Part shown: one piece after another, positions 42,659 to 50,503 of the stretch | Layout of the letters: the number at the start of each line of letters is the position of its first letter | Position numbering within the stretch: position 1 is the first letter of the stretch | Source: an uncultured Bacteroidia bacterium | GTDB taxonomy: Bacteria; Bacteroidota; Bacteroidia; Bacteroidales; UBA932 | Reading direction: 5' to 3' | Assembly (NCBI GenBank): GCA_902768665.1 | Contig: CACXMA010000005.1 | Location: forward strand, 37,979-101,978 | Length of the DNA stretch: 64,000 nt | The notes under the pieces: model-generated | The model's input: only the letters and a program-made list of their open reading frames with translations | Databases searched by the model: none | Told to the model about the DNA's origin: nothing | Program-made: the position numbers and the translations under genes

Positions 42659-42725
42659 CCACCATCGCACCCCCAAATAGCGGTATCGCGGAGCCCTATG
42701 CTCCGCGATTTTTTCCTTATCCCGC
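42659..42725. repeat. 67-base direct repeat, copy 1, with terminator hairpin
   Basis: It shares about 90% of its bases with 44870-44935. Inside, ATCGCGGAGC (42685-42694) and GCTCCGCGAT (42700-42709) form a terminator stem followed by TTTTT. The conserved block also includes a 5' part, CACCCCCAAA and AGCGGT, before the hairpin. Confidence 0.75.
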
Positions 42726-42791: not shown

Positions 42792-44816
42792 ATGAGAAAG
42801 ATATCTACAATCGCCTTAGCCATGTTTGCCTTTACGGCATCTTTGTTCGCTCAGAGCAATCCATACGATTACTATTATCCAATGGGAGTTCAATTAATTG
42901 AAACAGAGTATTACAATGGGTATGAGGCGCGCTATCGTTATATCATGTACGATTTCATCAACTTGACGAAGGTCGTAGATAGACGAGTCGTGGCCAACCG
43001 AAGTTTTAATGGATACTCATACAGGGACCTTGATGTTGACTACGTAAAGAACTATACTTTGTACGTAAATCGGATACGGGCAAACAATCTCACCGATTCC
43101 CAGATCAATGACTATATCATATACAAGTGCCCCAAAGGAACAGAGACCACCACTTGGGTAAACTCCGGTAAAAGCAGTTTGGGTGTGTACTATTATAATA
43201 ACGGCGAGGCAACCAAAGTATCCATTTCATATAACGGGCGGACATTTCAGGCGTTGAGGGTAATCAACTGGGAAGAATGGGGAGATGGTGCCAAAGCCGA
43301 GACAGTATTCTGGGTGCGCAATTGGGGCGATGCGCTCAAGATAGAAGCGGATGGATCTATAACATGGATGAACACCGCCCTGTTCGCTGCTGATGTCCAG
43401 AATACAGCGGCTTTCAAGAATGCCATGGCCAGAATGAAAGCCATCGATGACGAGCAAAGGGCGACGAAAGTCTACAATGGAGGGAAAGTCTCGTTCAAAC
43501 CGACCACCATCCCGGCAGATCTTCTGGCCTATGCCAATGAGTTCAAATCTGCGATAAGGGCCCGGCAGGATCTGACGTCTTACCTCGGTGGAGATTTACT
43601 GGTGAATTATAAGATGGACAGGGCCGTAAAAGATAACGACACTGAGGCTTTCGCCTACTATATGAAGGACCCCTATTTCTCTGGACTGGACGCTCTTGCA
43701 GCGTACCTTGATGAGATTGAGAGCACTTGCACTTTGGAGAAACGCGGCCCCGGAGGCCGGACTGTATGTTATGTCCTGCCTGGTTACTCAACTTGTATAG
43801 ACCAGTTCAAGGGGAAGGAGGAAGTACACAGAGGCGTGCTGATTGAACGGGCAGAAGAAGGAGTTAAGCTTGGCGTGATATATAAGCCGCTCAAAGCATA
43901 CAAAGAGAGGAATACGAATTCCAAGGTCAATTATCAGGCTGACCCTTATCGCCTGCTGATTCTGAGCAACGGACAATGGGATAATGGGGTCTATTGGTAT
44001 CGTGCCTCCACCTTGGATGATAAGAAGATGGGTTATGTCCGCGATGGTGAGGTGTTCCTTGACGAGCATTATCAGTTCATATTCACCAAGGAAGAGAATG
44101 GATATAAACTCACGGATGTCTACTCCTGCCATATGACCGATAAACAATTCAATGAGGAGCAGAGGAAGCGTGAACAAGAGAAGGCGGAATTCGCCGCCGC
44201 CCACGAAAATGACAGCTTCAGCATCAACGAAGAGTTCCCGGGGGTAAGCAATACGTTAAAGGGAATTATCCACACCAACGTAGTCAACTCCGTCAAGGAC
44301 TACTCATCTTTCGTCAGGGGGCTGGAAGAAGATGATTATACACTGCGTGTTGAGGCGAAATGTTATTCCCAAGACCGGATAGAGGTGAAGAATAAGGGCG
44401 ATATCACGATCGATAAAATCTTCGTAAAGAATGCAATTGCCGGATTGTATGAGAAGGGTATTATGCGCCCTTCTACGCTCCTGTTTAAGAAGTACAACTA
44501 TGAAATTCCATTCCCTGGAAAATATGAGTATCACACGAACCTGACGATCAAGCACCACATGGCAACGATGATTCTCAAGAAAGGACAGTGGATTCCGGAC
44601 AAGAATTCCGTCGATACGTACAATGGCAATAAAGCAGTATGCGATGCACTAGTATCTGAATTGTCAGCCAAGGATGCGAAGGCAAAGAAGCTTGTGCTGG
44701 AATGGATGAGCCTTGATACTCCGGAGGGATTAAAGTATGCAAAAGTGGCGGAGACAGTCAAAGTTAAGAAGCAACGCGACAAGTTCATTCTCGGACCAGA
44801 GATTGTGTTGGAATAA
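42792..44816 (+). CDS. Large secreted protein of unknown function
   Basis: The protein has 674 residues. A signal peptide covers 1-20 (cut after LFA-Q). The rest is rich in Tyr, Asn and Lys with no recognised domain; a charged helical stretch (DKQFNEEQRKREQEKAEFAA) lies near 455-475. Base composition is clearly more A/T-rich than core genes, a sign of foreign origin. It has its own promoter and is enclosed by the 67-base direct repeats at 42659 and 44870, so it behaves like a self-contained cassette. Confidence 0.7.
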   Translation: MRKISTIALAMFAFTASLFAQSNPYDYYYPMGVQLIETEYYNGYEARYRYIMYDFINLTKVVDRRVVANRSFNGYSYRDLDVDYVKNYTLYVNRIRANNLTDSQINDYIIYKCPKGTETTTWVNSGKSSLGVYYYNNGEATKVSISYNGRTFQALRVINWEEWGDGAKAETVFWVRNWGDALKIEADGSITWMNTALFAADVQNTAAFKNAMARMKAIDDEQRATKVYNGGKVSFKPTTIPADLLAYANEFKSAIRARQDLTSYLGGDLLVNYKMDRAVKDNDTEAFAYYMKDPYFSGLDALAAYLDEIESTCTLEKRGPGGRTVCYVLPGYSTCIDQFKGKEEVHRGVLIERAEEGVKLGVIYKPLKAYKERNTNSKVNYQADPYRLLILSNGQWDNGVYWYRASTLDDKKMGYVRDGEVFLDEHYQFIFTKEENGYKLTDVYSCHMTDKQFNEEQRKREQEKAEFAAAHENDSFSINEEFPGVSNTLKGIIHTNVVNSVKDYSSFVRGLEEDDYTLRVEAKCYSQDRIEVKNKGDITIDKIFVKNAIAGLYEKGIMRPSTLLFKKYNYEIPFPGKYEYHTNLTIKHHMATMILKKGQWIPDKNSVDTYNGNKAVCDALVSELSAKDAKAKKLVLEWMSLDTPEGLKYAKVAETVKVKKQRDKFILGPEIVLE

Positions 44817-44869: not shown

Positions 44870-44935
44870 CCACCGTCGCACCCCCAAACAGCGGTATCGC
44901 GGAGCCTTAAGCCCCGCGATTTTTTCTTAGCCCGC
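44870..44935. repeat. 67-base direct repeat, copy 2, with terminator hairpin
   Basis: This is the partner of 42659-42725. The stem ATCGCGGAGC (44896-44905) with GCCCCGCGAT (44911-44920) has one mismatch and is followed by TTTTT. It lies 54 bases after the 674-residue protein's stop. Confidence 0.75.
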
Positions 44936-45930
44936 CCGGCGCGTTGCGCCACCCACCCCTAGCGGTCTCGGCAGTCAGCGAAGAGGAAGCGGGCCCCTTC
45001 AGCGAGGCCTGTCGGCTCGCTCTTCCCCTTCCTCCTCGCTGCCTCGCCGAGCTGGTCTGTGCCCCTCCGGCTCCCCGAGGGGAGGGAATGAACGCCCGGC
45101 CGATCCCTCCGACCAACCGCCATCCCGAGTTCGCCAGAGCATAACATAATCCGAGTCTTGATTGTGTAAACGGGGCGAGAGTCGCCCCGTTACACAATCC
45201 GGATTATGTTAAGCACTTCCGTGAGCCCTTTGTAGGACTCTTTCCCTCCGGCCGGTCGAGTCGGCGTCAGGAAGGGGTTTCGCTCAGGGGCCGTACCCCG
45301 GCCCCGGCCCGTCGCGAAACCCCGCCTCTCGTGGGTCCCCGCCCGCGAGAGGCCGCTCCGCAAAAGCATCACTGCGAGTTCGACTGCCATCTCCCGCCCG
45401 AGGGTTGCTCCTGACGCCTCCGCGGCAGAGCCGCAGGGTCGGCCTCCCTCGAAAGCCAGCAGGCACTTGCCCTGATCCGGGTCTCACGCCCCGGGGTCAA
45501 GTGCCTGCTCGCTTTCTCCTTCCGTCCTCCTCGGTAAGGCGGCCTGCTCCGCTTCGCTTCTCCCGCCGCCTTGGTTCTCTCCGGCTGCTATGCCTTCGGG
45601 CAGCCGGAGGAGGGCAGTGCCAGCTCTACTGCCTTACCTCCGTTCCAGGGCATCGAGCCCTCCGTACCTCCGGGCTCGTGCCGTCGGGACATCACCGCCT
45701 GTTCTACCAATCGAGCACCCGTGCTCCCTCCGGCAGCCTCCGCTATCGCTCCGGCGCCCTGGCAGCCGGGATGGTTTCGCCATCGAGCGCCGTACCTCCG
45801 ATCCAAAGACACCCCGGGCGAAAACCTCCCCGCCAGCCAGGTCCGAATCCTGGACGCCCGCCCCCAAACCCGTGCATCCTGGAGGAACGGGCTACCCCGC
45901 TCGGGGGCTCGGTGCCCGGGCTAAGAAAAT
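44936..45930. other. GC-rich non-coding block of consecutive palindromes
   Basis: About 1 kb without a believable gene; every frame gives short Arg/Pro/Gly-rich products. It is built from successive inverted repeats: 44976-44989 with 45028-45041; 45139-45214; 45274-45283 with 45314-45323; 45324-45331 with 45346-45353; 45459-45469 with 45498-45508 (extended by 45451-45456 with 45511-45516); 45536-45543 with 45565-45572; 45579-45588 with 45600-45609. TACCTCCG recurs at 45635, 45665 and 45793, twice preceded by CATCGAGC. It could be a large structured RNA, or DNA that acts as folded single strand. No known family is recognised. Confidence 0.6.
45139..45214. repeat. Long bulged palindrome, attC-like in form
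   Basis: GCATAAC (45139-45145) and GTTAAGC (45208-45214) close a stem that continues ATAATCCG/CGGATTAT, GATTGTGTAA/TTACACAATC and CGGGGCGA/TCGCCCCG around loop GAG. Unpaired bases (AGTCTT and one A) all lie on the left arm. GTTAAGC fits the integron core consensus GTTRRRY; the left end fits RYYYAAC except at its third base. No integron integrase is present in the window. Confidence 0.5.
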
Positions 45931-46008
45931 ATATAATTATTTGATTTTTAGCTTGTTATCGTCGTGGATTTTTCGTATCTTGTATACAGAAACAAAGACG
46001 AAAGCGAT

Positions 46009-46260
46009 ATGAAAAAGCAACTTCACAACTGGCGAGTTCTCGTAGAGCTCATGGAAAAGCAAATCTGGTTTTACATCGATGCGCGCAACCTTTTCCCGAA
46101 GGGCGCGAAGATCTGGGTGGATGCTCCGAAAGGTCTTGTCAACCTGGAGCAAAATGGGAAATCCTTCTCTGGTGAGGGATTGCCGGCTTGCCTGTTTGTT
46201 TACACGGATGTGGAGAAAGGGGAGCGTCCTGATCTGGACTATAGAGGAGTATGCTGCTGA
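46009..46260 (+). CDS. Small hypothetical protein
   Basis: The protein has 83 residues from the ATG at 46009, starting MKKQLHNWRVLVELMEKQ. TATCTTGT about 30 bases upstream may be a -7 box. The product is mixed alpha/beta with a Cys-Cys C-terminus (RGVCC) and no family match. It lies between the GC-rich block and the first 51-base repeat. It may be a fragment. Confidence 0.45.
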   Translation: MKKQLHNWRVLVELMEKQIWFYIDARNLFPKGAKIWVDAPKGLVNLEQNGKSFSGEGLPACLFVYTDVEKGERPDLDYRGVCC

Positions 46261-46550: not shown

Positions 46551-47432
46551 ATGAAAAAACCTTTGTTATTGTTCGCGTTGTGCCTGATGTCGCTGACGAT
46601 GCAGGCGCAACGTTGTGCTGTGCTTGAGTTTAGGGCAGGTGTCGGAATATCGCAGGCTGATGTAGATGGGTTGTCGGCCATATTTATTACCTATTTCCGT
46701 CCTGCTGGTTACACAATGGTTGAACGAACCCAGATTGACAAGGCAATTGACGAGCAAGGGTTCCAACGTTCAAGTATGACAGAAAACCAGATGGTACGCA
46801 TTGGGCAAATACTAAATGTATCAAAAGTGGTTGTGGGTGACGTGAATATTGTGATGGGGCAGTATAATGTTGACACCCGTGTAATAAATGTTGAGACAGG
46901 CACTATTGCCGCCACTGAAGGAACCTCTTTTACCGGTTCGTCTTATAGAACCACGATGCAGAGTTTGGCTGAACGATTAGCGGCAAAGATTGCAATTGCC
47001 CCTGGAAGCACAGTTCCTTCACCAACGGCAACTCAGGGGTATACCGATCTTGGCTTGCCTAGCGGCACCCTGTGGAAAAATTTCAACGCCGCTGGGTTTT
47101 ATACATACGACGAGGCTGTCTCGCAGTTTGGCAGCCGTCTACCTTCCAAAGCTCAGTGGGAGGAGTTGAAGGCGGAATGCCAATGGTCGTGGACTGGCAA
47201 CGGCTACATTGTTACAGGGCCTAACGCTAATTCCATTTCCTTGCCCGCCTCCGGCTTTCGTAGCATTGATGGCCATCTCTACCAAGACACTGTAGGAATA
47301 AGTGGAGCCTATTGGTCGTCTACGTCCAACAGTTCCGAGAACGCCTGGTACATTTACTTCTACGAGGACGGTGTGGACATGCTCAACTTCTACCGTGAAG
47401 CAGGGTATTCTGTCCGGTTGGTCCAAAATTAA
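46551..47432 (+). CDS. CsgG-like and FISUMP-type two-domain secreted protein
   Basis: The protein has 293 residues. A signal peptide covers 1-19 (cut near MQAQ). Residues ~20-155 resemble the CsgG/FlgO-type fold: MVERTQIDKAIDEQGFQ followed by VGQILNVSKVVVGDV-like strands that in CsgG relatives bind the cell envelope. Residues ~165-293 carry GYTDLGLPSGTLWKNFN and SGAYWSSTSNSSENAWYIYF, the pattern of FISUMP/DUF1566-like domains, which have a lectin-like fold. It lies between two identical 51-base repeats and is A/T-rich. The function is unknown; an envelope-anchored binding protein is inference. Confidence 0.65.
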   Translation: MKKPLLLFALCLMSLTMQAQRCAVLEFRAGVGISQADVDGLSAIFITYFRPAGYTMVERTQIDKAIDEQGFQRSSMTENQMVRIGQILNVSKVVVGDVNIVMGQYNVDTRVINVETGTIAATEGTSFTGSSYRTTMQSLAERLAAKIAIAPGSTVPSPTATQGYTDLGLPSGTLWKNFNAAGFYTYDEAVSQFGSRLPSKAQWEELKAECQWSWTGNGYIVTGPNANSISLPASGFRSIDGHLYQDTVGISGAYWSSTSNSSENAWYIYFYEDGVDMLNFYREAGYSVRLVQN

Positions 47433-49026: not shown

Positions 49027-49773
49027 CTATTCGCTCTTGGTGAAGGTCTTCTCCGCGACGGAGCTGGAGACGCCGTCCTTGATGGCGATGGCCTTCACGG
49101 TGGCGGTGGCGCTCAGGGTGAAGGCGGCGCTGTACTGGGTGCTCTCCGCGGTCGGAGTGCTGCCGTCTGTAGTGTAGCGGATGGTCGCGCCGTCAGGACC
49201 GGTGATGGTCACCTGGGTGGACTCGGTGAACGGAGTGGTACCGCTGATCTCCGGAGCCGCGACGGAGGCCGGGGCGATCCACTTGGTCTCCGCCTGCATG
49301 GTCGCGGACTTCTCGCCGGTGTCCTTGTTGACGAAGTAGTAGCAGAAGAAGATCTTCGGAGCCGCTGCGCTCGGGGCGCCGTGGCGTGCTACGTAGGCGG
49401 CGCGGATGTCCTCGACGGAGGTGTCGGGTTCGTCGACCATGGTGATGGCGACGGCCTTGGCGTGGGCGCGGGAGACGCCGTTGCTCTGGCCTTCGGAGGC
49501 CTCGATGACGAGCTCGATGCCGCCGTTGTCGGTGAGGGGCTGGTCCAGCTTGAAGGTGAAGGTGTCACCCTGGCAGACGATCGTCGCGGTAGACGGAGTC
49601 TCGACGCCGACGAGGGTCGGGGGTTCGGTGAGAGGATTGCCGCCGCAGGCTACGATCCAGTAGTTGAGGCGTGTGTAGAGGTTGGCGCCGGAGATCTTGG
49701 CGGAGGAGCCAAGGACGGAGCGTCCCTGCTGGGAGAGAGCGAGCTTGTTCCAAGCCAGGATCTGGTCGGGCAT
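49027..49773 (-). CDS. Protein with chitobiase/hexosaminidase C-terminal-type domain, possibly 5' truncated
   Basis: The protein has 248 residues from the ATG at 49773. The C-terminal ~75 residues (ISGTTPFTESTQVTITGPDG and IRYTTDGSTPTAES) form a CHB_HEX_C-type beta domain often used as an accessory module. The N-terminal part (QILAWNKLALSQQG, KISGANLYTRLNYW) resembles Bacteroidetes phage- or element-type hypotheticals that normally have about 80 more residues before this point. The frame stays open to 50061, but the upstream translation is Pro/Arg/Ser-rich and unlike protein, so the true 5' end may be lost. Confidence 0.5.
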   Translation of the reverse strand: MPDQILAWNKLALSQQGRSVLGSSAKISGANLYTRLNYWIVACGGNPLTEPPTLVGVETPSTATIVCQGDTFTFKLDQPLTDNGGIELVIEASEGQSNGVSRAHAKAVAITMVDEPDTSVEDIRAAYVARHGAPSAAAPKIFFCYYFVNKDTGEKSATMQAETKWIAPASVAAPEISGTTPFTESTQVTITGPDGATIRYTTDGSTPTAESTQYSAAFTLSATATVKAIAIKDGVSSSVAEKTFTKSE

Positions 49774-50044
49774 GACGGGGAAGAGCTCTGCATACGATGT
49801 GTATGGCGGTCCCTGGAGCGGGTGGTTGGGGCTGCGGTGAGGGCTCGTTGGTGAAAACGGAAATGTGCGGGGGGACGTGCAGGGGACGGTGACGCGAAGC
49901 GGCAGGACGGCGTGTGTCTGACGACTGTTAGGCGGGCTCGCCCCGACTAAAAAGGAGGAGTTAGCCGTCCAGTCCCCGGTGCCGCTCCGTTTTCGCCTTC
50001 CGAGCCTGAGCCGCAGTCCCGACCGGCCGCGGAAGGGGATGGGG

Positions 50045-50503
50045 TCAGAGGGTTCGGACAAGGCGGTCGACGTCGTCGTAGTCGTAGCCGCGGGAGAGGC
50101 CGAATTTCAGCAGTTTCAGCCGGAAGGCGGGATCGCCTTCGAGCGTACGGGCCTTGGCCTGCAGGAGCTTCTCCAGCCGCGCCGAGGCCTTTTCCGCGTC
50201 GATTTCCGTGAGGGCGTCGGCGATGACGTCGCGGGAGATGCCCTTGCCGGCGAGCATGAAGCGGAGTTTGGCCTCGCCCCAGCCCTGGAGGGCGGATTTC
50301 TCCCGGACGAAGGCGCCGGCGTAGCGGCGGTCGTCTACGAAGCCGTCCTTTACGAGCGAGGCGACGATCTTCTCCGCGGCATCAGCGTCCCCGCCGAGCG
50401 CCTTGAGGGCCTTGCGGCGGATGTCTGAGCTGCAGTATTCCATGCGGGCGCACTGGCGCTCGTAGCGCTCCAGGATCTTTTTCGGGTCCGGATCAGAATT
50501 CAT
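50045..50503 (-). CDS. recX: Regulatory protein RecX
   Basis: This 152-residue protein has the three-helix repeats of RecX: YCSSDIRRKALKALGG, VKDGFVDDRRYAGAFV and LRFMLAGKGISRDVIADAL. RecX limits RecA filament growth. Here recA lies 3.6 kb away on the other strand rather than adjacent. The gene start overlaps the end of the patatin gene by 11 bases, so it is translated from that transcript. Confidence 0.88.
   Translation of the reverse strand: MNSDPDPKKILERYERQCARMEYCSSDIRRKALKALGGDADAAEKIVASLVKDGFVDDRRYAGAFVREKSALQGWGEAKLRFMLAGKGISRDVIADALTEIDAEKASARLEKLLQAKARTLEGDPAFRLKLLKFGLSRGYDYDDVDRLVRTL

Follow-up and report, generated by a model that had tools for sequence, protein, structure and literature searches.

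The window, that is, the whole 64,000-nucleotide stretch of DNA analyzed here, contains between positions 44936 and 45930 a block whose GC content amounts to 67%, compared with 46% in 2 kb of its flanks. The block contains nine perfect stems that do not overlap, each 8 bp or longer and with no more than 60 nt between its arms, while 100 dinucleotide shuffles gave 1.3 such stems on average and five at most, and the folding z-score reached -9.3 for the plus strand and -8.8 for the minus strand (60 shuffles each). Reading frames of 179, 140, and 117 aa cross the block, and a Pfam search of the 179-aa frame, the sole one searched, gave no match. These results bear out the sequence-only reading of the locus, which had described a GC-rich run of palindromes without a gene and with only implausible translations. 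Of the repeated words that it had pointed out, TACCTCCG is indeed confined to the block, where it occurs three times, while CATCGAGC is present twice in the block and six times in the whole window and is therefore less special as a block word. Since a 16-nt inverted repeat closes the block at both ends, its limits are better placed at 44919-45932 (cf. Table 1), and this gene-free, GC-rich folded block was confirmed as a genuine feature.

The sequence-only reading had also proposed a comparison with Rfam, having GOLLD, ROOL, HEARO, and OLE in mind. In a search of the entire library, which covers these RNAs insofar as they are included, no family reached its gathering score within the block in the window copy, and at E ≤ 1 no family fell on the element in the window copy and five other loci. 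A known Rfam RNA was hence rejected as a candidate; the weak match to a plastid UTR seen in locus L003 scores under its cut-off and does not fall on the element. Furthermore, no similar phage or plasmid DNA was found at the search sensitivity used. As to the surroundings of the block in the window, a 37-bp repeat (86%), which by eye extends to about 60 bp, occupies positions 42689-42725 and 44900-44935; it carries a terminator-like hairpin, CGCGGAGCC...GCGATTTTTTC, and flanks a 674-aa gene (42792-44816) on both sides. A lipoprotein-like gene with a weak CsgG match is found at 46551-47432.

Table 1 Features of the element and of its neighborhood, in window coordinates
Feature	Position	Strand	Remarks
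Whole folded element	44919..45932	- (presumed folded strand)	about 1.0 kb here, about 1.5-1.7 kb in several relatives
Closing stem, 3' arm (minus-strand reading)	44919..44934	-	16 nt, 94% complementary to 45917-45932
Xer-type hairpin	45138..45221	-	two inverted dif-like sites, 6-nt bulge; ssDNA z -10.2 (-), -11.0 (+)
dif-like site 1	45142..45169	-	XerD-type arm 45142-45149, 12-nt center 45150-45161, XerC-type arm 45162-45169
dif-like site 2	45190..45212	+	XerC-type arm 45190-45197, 6-nt center 45198-45203, XerD-type arm 45204-45212
Large hairpin adjoining the Xer-type hairpin	45274..45323	-	10-bp perfect stem; by eye, counterpart of helix 19 in the family alignment
Closing stem, 5' arm (minus-strand reading)	45917..45932	-	partner of 44919..44934
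Small c9-cluster ORF to the right of the element	46009..46260	+	homologous ORFs beside two other copies (three stretches including the window)
Gene of the c0 family, usual neighbor of the element	49027..50061	-	here 3.8 kb away, with Fn3-associated domains

Copies of the element and their gene neighborhood

The block is one copy of a dispersed family of elements. DNA and core searches revealed three copies in its own genome, namely that in the window and those at G000:C9 and G000:C14. When one mismatch was allowed, a 19-nt core, ACAATYCGGATTATGTTAA, was detected in 46 of 400 genomes of the genus; across the order, 5 of 198 genomes carried it, including that of the window. The covariance model R1, which describes a domain lying some 700 nt away from the core, detected the family in 39 of 232 genus genomes, each at least 85% complete, and across the order in a single genome out of 247, again the window's own; since R1 misses both the window copy and the G000:C14 copy, this census is a lower bound. 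The window copy is a divergent member, and the family profile matches only 77 nt of it (45252-45328, E 8.4e-5), a segment that covers the large hairpin next to the Xer-type one. A scan of named genome contigs yielded 57 stretches, 11 of which were dropped as they had neither an inverted partner nor a GC-rich element. Nearly all of the 46 stretches kept belong to uncultured Bacteroidales or Bacteroidia assemblies, many of them with rumen-sample names. The copies are GC-rich, span in many cases about -620 to +1050 relative to the core, and mostly have unrelated flanks, a few of them having flanks in common. The core was also found in one IMG/VR contig, of which 1.3 kb was inspected. The family profile did not match loci L093, L097, and L102, which have the hairpin alone in common with the family, plus a c0-type gene in L097, while Sanguibacteroides massiliensis has, in series, the hairpin, a distantly related c0-type gene (22% identity), and a gene for a tRNA, the remainder of the profile being unmatched. 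Searches of open-licence papers on Xer elements and large noncoding RNAs in Bacteroidetes, on ornate RNAs, on structured RNAs of the rumen, on attP1/attP2, and on dif-like hairpins gave no title or abstract in which the element family is described.

Of 24 stretches, among which two pairs represent the same place, 22 have a gene of the c0 protein family no farther than about 4 kb from the core. Apart from the window member, the c0 proteins tested gave no match in Pfam, NCBIfam, or named PHROGs, and a confident structure prediction for c0 (pLDDT 86) resulted in only unspecific matches in PDB and BFVD. Several c0 paralogues form a cluster whose orientation with respect to the element is inverted in L132 and L139 as compared with L134 and L082. 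The small c9 ORF belongs to no Pfam or PHROGs family. A related tyrosine recombinase accompanies the element in six stretches, corresponding to five places, with an HTH gene in some of them; together with the mostly unrelated flanks, these genes were counted as a mobile context. The neighboring recombinase matched the integron-integrase model weakly (E 0.0099, 15 bits, with a cut-off of 265), and no IntI-type integrase was recognized beside the element. No phage replication or capsid family appeared among the neighboring ORFs searched, and one neighboring cluster includes a phage-type endolysin gene. Defense-type genes stand to the left of several copies: at eight loci picked by appearance, 7 of 10 proteins matched PADLOC models, comprising Argonaute in two loci, Vsr, type IIG and type II restriction-modification, and two candidate systems. 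The two prokaryotic Argonaute genes are located at L084:2489-4579 (-), near what by eye is a methylase-like gene, and at L114:930-3185 (+), near the gene of the Vsr endonuclease. Other copies adjoin ordinary genes, e.g. dnaB.

A conserved multi-branched fold

The relatives were aligned in two sets, A3 with 23 full-length sequences in minus-strand reading and A2 with 34 sequences, both picked for completeness and, in part, for being different. A3 contains 152 pairs in 19 helices, with standard pairing at 95.1%, and two-sided changes occur at 76 of the 152 pairs. The cells with two-sided changes number 363, compared with 113 in shuffles and no more than 70 in slid controls. This level of covariation was approached by none of the 500 shuffles and by none of the six slid versions, the helices being favored in the slid control because they were taken from the same alignment. 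The helices are nested across up to about 290 columns, conserved stretches are present outside them as well, and the alignment consists of distinct domains, not of tandem repeats. The two-sided changes at half of the pairs in 23 relatives indicate that a single strand folds, and the dispersed family has a conserved multi-branched fold. The sequence-only reading had suggested a large structured RNA or a DNA element functioning as folded strands, and it had named compensatory changes in homologues as the thing to look for; since the homologues do covary, its suggestion gains support. The Xer-type hairpin, the other copies, and the gene neighborhood are additions to it.

At about columns 229-244 of A3, which correspond to the right end of the element in the relatives, a conserved AT-rich near-palindrome, GTATAAATATATAC, is followed by a GCAGCGGC hairpin. 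This stretch sits between the element and the c0 gene and could be a promoter or a binding site.

Two inverted Xer-type sites in one hairpin

The hairpin within the element comprises two inverted Xer-type sites; their arms equal those of the host dif candidate or come close to them, and by this resemblance they are predicted to bind XerC and XerD. The dif candidate, GTTATACAA-TTTATA-TTATGTTAA, is located at G000:C13:64766-64785, where the GC skew changes sign, and its 20-mer is present in 37 of 150 genus genomes. The pattern AA-N6-TTATGTTAA has only four matches in the window's own genome, i.e. the three element copies and the dif candidate. The XerD arm of the element, TTATGTTAA, is identical to that of the candidate. 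Its XerC arm, for which dif has GTTATACAA, reads GTTACACAA in most relatives at site 1 and in the window at site 2, and it varies more in other copies; in L008, L009, and L010, it is TTATACAA, as in dif.

Site 1 was present in 46 of the 50 copies that had been selected by site 2; among the remaining four, contig ends truncate three, and L106 shows a palindrome at this place. Its center measures 11 nt in 43 of these 46 copies, 10 nt in two, and 12 nt in one, that of the window. Site 2 with its 6-nt center served as the search key, and the constant length of that center is thus a product of the selection. The last three bases of center 1 pair with the first three of center 2, as GGA-TCC or GAA-TTC, in 42 of 46 copies, the pairing being incomplete in L093, L102, L117, and the window. 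When pairs were counted in 34 sequences, one pair of the hairpin was seen to switch from GC (19 sequences) to AU (14), and the XerD-arm helix, which provides 11 of the 22 hairpin pairs, was invariant. Two copies found independently of the core, through the distant domain, have TCTAGA centers, in which both sides are changed and the pairing is kept. Three copies were found by means other than the core: L008 and L010 carry the long center on the other site, and in L009 (G124:C98) both dif-like sites have 7-nt centers. The two sites are spaced by 89-91 nt in most copies and by 36 nt or less in others, with 23 nt in the window. In 150 genomes, about 21 of which carry the core, the XerC arm of dif was never found joined to the element center, so there is no trace of integration at dif; of the three bases on the XerC side, the centers TCCGGA and TTCGGA (TYCGGA) share one or two with the dif center TTTATA. 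Moreover, since both flanks of the hairpin consist of element sequence, the copies did not insert through it.

Several variants of these sites were seen. L193 (G013) keeps the XerD-type arms and has lost the XerC arms and the loop, leaving TAACATAATCC-CATCA-GGATTATGTTAAG. At the end of L020 and near the start of L106, palindromes at contig ends fall exactly in the Xer hairpin, which may reflect an assembly artefact or a rearrangement. Dif-like sites with other centers occur in G068:C73, G095:C3, and G211:C108, possibly as marks of other Xer-using elements, and G068 and G095 have a dif-like site on another contig as well.

The arrangement was compared with known systems. Some viruses have docking sites with which they hijack the recombinases that separate the chromosomes of their host. 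The attP of the filamentous phage CTXphi is outlined in PMC4246890 as having inverted sites, attP1 and attP2, with 12-bp and 5-7-bp centers, 90 bp apart. The hairpin of the element is like the attP of this integrative mobile element exploiting Xer (IMEX) in its two inverted dif-like sites, in their mostly 11-12-nt and 6-nt centers, in their spacing of mostly about 90 nt, and in arms that resemble the host dif candidate. It differs in that (i) it lies inside a kilobase-scale conserved fold, (ii) no copy of the element was seen at dif and its center matches dif poorly, and (iii) no phage gene set was recognized in the neighborhood searched. For the Bacteroidetes microvirus proviruses BMV4-6, an additional dif-like sequence is mentioned and called reminiscent of CTXphi (PMC3091885). 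They share Bacteroidales hosts and dif-like sites with the element, whereas their capsid and rolling-circle replication genes, placed between dif-like repeats, had no counterpart recognized among the element ORFs searched. In integrons, the attC site is a folded strand that is recognized by a tyrosine recombinase and has extra unpaired bases on one side. A folded strand as the site and unpaired bases on one side would also apply to the element; in contrast to attC, its arms match the host dif candidate, and an IntI-type integrase, which belongs to integrons together with a cassette array, was not recognized.

Folded DNA strand or RNA

We infer that the minus strand is the one that folds, as several signs favor it. 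When helices of A3 were detected by Watson-Crick pairs only, the wobble-type cells of the minus strand amounted to 59 GT versus 30 AC, in the same direction as in the RNase P control from the same genus (59 versus 16). An earlier alignment gave 108 GT versus 53 AC, a bias that shrinks to 323 versus 234 at the looser threshold of 0.5. Isolated mismatches of the minus strand are mostly G-A, T-T, G-G, and G-T, its unpaired bases are rich in A and G, like those of RNase P, and it provides the more stable fold in 35 of 37 copies. As base composition has a share in each of these signs, they support the minus strand rather than prove it. The Watson-Crick-only detection combined with the RNase P control replaced a first mismatch test, which was dropped because base composition could explain its result and the events in its rRNA control were too few.

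RNase P of the same genus also served as the control for loops and wobble, with the same script and, for wobble, equal thresholds. With stems of at least 5 bp, GNA loops were found in 25 of the 87 unique triloop hairpins of the element versus 1 of 17 in RNase P, while GNRA made up 7 of 81 tetraloops versus 7 of 16. If stems of at least 4 bp are admitted, the triloop contrast fades (36 of 203 versus 4 of 30) and the GNRA contrast stays (13 of 195 versus 13 of 50). About four homologous hairpins account for most of the GNA loops, and the favored C-G closing pair was seen in 44 of 94; d(GNA) is described as a family of stable DNA triloops with a C-G preference (PMC5815330). At a threshold of 0.65, there were 59 G-U per 3094 Watson-Crick cells in the element and 38 per 961 in RNase P. 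All five equal thresholds put the G-U share of the element at about half the RNase P value, the contrast being about twofold under these conditions and about threefold at unequal thresholds. The ratio of transition to transversion changes was 0.65-0.73, as opposed to 1.7-4.0 in RNase P, in a set more diverged than that of the control (69% versus 79% identity). No promoter or U-tract terminator was recognized by eye. Scarce wobble and GNA triloops, relative to RNase P, make us lean toward single-stranded DNA, whereas the multi-branched nested fold taken alone would make us lean toward RNA.

With confidence and doubt about evenly balanced, we propose that the block is the single-strand-folding recombination module of a small mobile element that has a CTXphi-like Xer hairpin, and we favor this folded-ssDNA module over a giant ornate RNA. 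Somewhat more tentatively, the element may represent a kilobase-scale, evolutionarily conserved, multi-branched ssDNA fold, in which the strand of a mobile element acts as a folded machine presenting a docking hairpin to XerC/XerD. We know of no precedent for kilobase-scale conserved ssDNA folds. Further points against the proposal are the lack of hybrid junctions at dif, the poor fit of the centers to that of dif, the deviating sites of L009, L193, and L106, the copies whose centers pair incompletely, and the fading of the triloop contrast once 4-bp stems are admitted. We infer both a single-stranded DNA stage and Xer activity of the element. On passing through such a stage, the minus strand would fold, and the hairpin would rebuild a XerC/XerD binding site with a 6-nt center on one strand and 11-12 nt on the other, as in the attP of CTXphi. 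XerC/XerD of the host could join this folded strand to a Xer site, while in the double-stranded form the unequal centers would bar recombination between two such sites, which would make the reaction one-way. The remaining hairpins might protect or condense the strand, or expose it for partner proteins.

A giant ornate noncoding RNA of the GOLLD, ROOL, or OLE kind, read from the minus strand within a mobile or phage-like gene cluster, is a serious competitor, though on balance we doubt it. The Xer hairpin would then be a helix of this RNA that doubles, or in the past doubled, as an attachment site. The element resembles these RNAs in its size class, its multi-branched covarying fold, and its mobile or phage-like neighborhood, and an RNA would agree well with the long-range nested helices and their strong covariation, the conserved stretches outside them, the RNase P-like direction of the wobble bias, the greater stability of the minus strand, and its A- and G-rich unpaired bases. 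The endolysin gene in a neighboring cluster points the same way, GOLLD and ROOL being presented as residents of phages and prophages (PMC12286853). However, the halved G-U share, the fewer transition-type changes, and the fewer GNRA loops are not what the RNase P of the same genus displays, and the deficits in wobble and GNRA loops were counted as a difference from GOLLD, ROOL, and OLE, as was the lack of an Rfam match. Besides the promoter and U-tract terminator that were not recognized by eye, such an RNA leaves a DNA recombination site inside the fold unexplained.

We consider it unlikely that the family is a DNA-level recombination platform, on which XerC/XerD act on the dif-like sites of different copies and exchange flanks, cargo, or halves of the element. 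By eye, hairpins appear to have been swapped as modules between copies, and transversion-type pair replacements prevail, unlike in RNase P. The defense-type genes left of several copies would be suitable cargo, but their eight loci were picked by appearance. Nine of 47 contigs break off no more than about 150 nt from the core (47 of the 53 core places entered), a signal that we judged non-specific because hairpins, GC content, or repeats may cause such breaks. Finally, decayed coding sequence or a cluster of simple REP-type repeats, to which the short repeated words and stems of the window copy could be ascribed, is highly improbable in view of a nested fold conserved in 23 relatives (a property of the family, to which the window copy is tied by the profile match and the hairpin only), the distinct domains in place of tandem repeats, and a 179-aa frame without a protein family; for the family, a decayed gene was rejected by the covariation.

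If the fold is one of DNA, functional nucleic-acid folding in bacteria would extend from short hairpins, such as attC and the attP of CTXphi, to a kilobase, and the family would add a new group of likely Xer hijackers; an ssDNA fold of this kind would give DNA an equivalent of the giant ornate RNAs. If it is one of RNA, the family would constitute a new class of giant RNAs, so far mainly from one Bacteroidales genus, with a recombination site inside the gene. The unnamed protein family c0, the recombinases, and, in places, the defense-type genes offer entry points to the function of the element.
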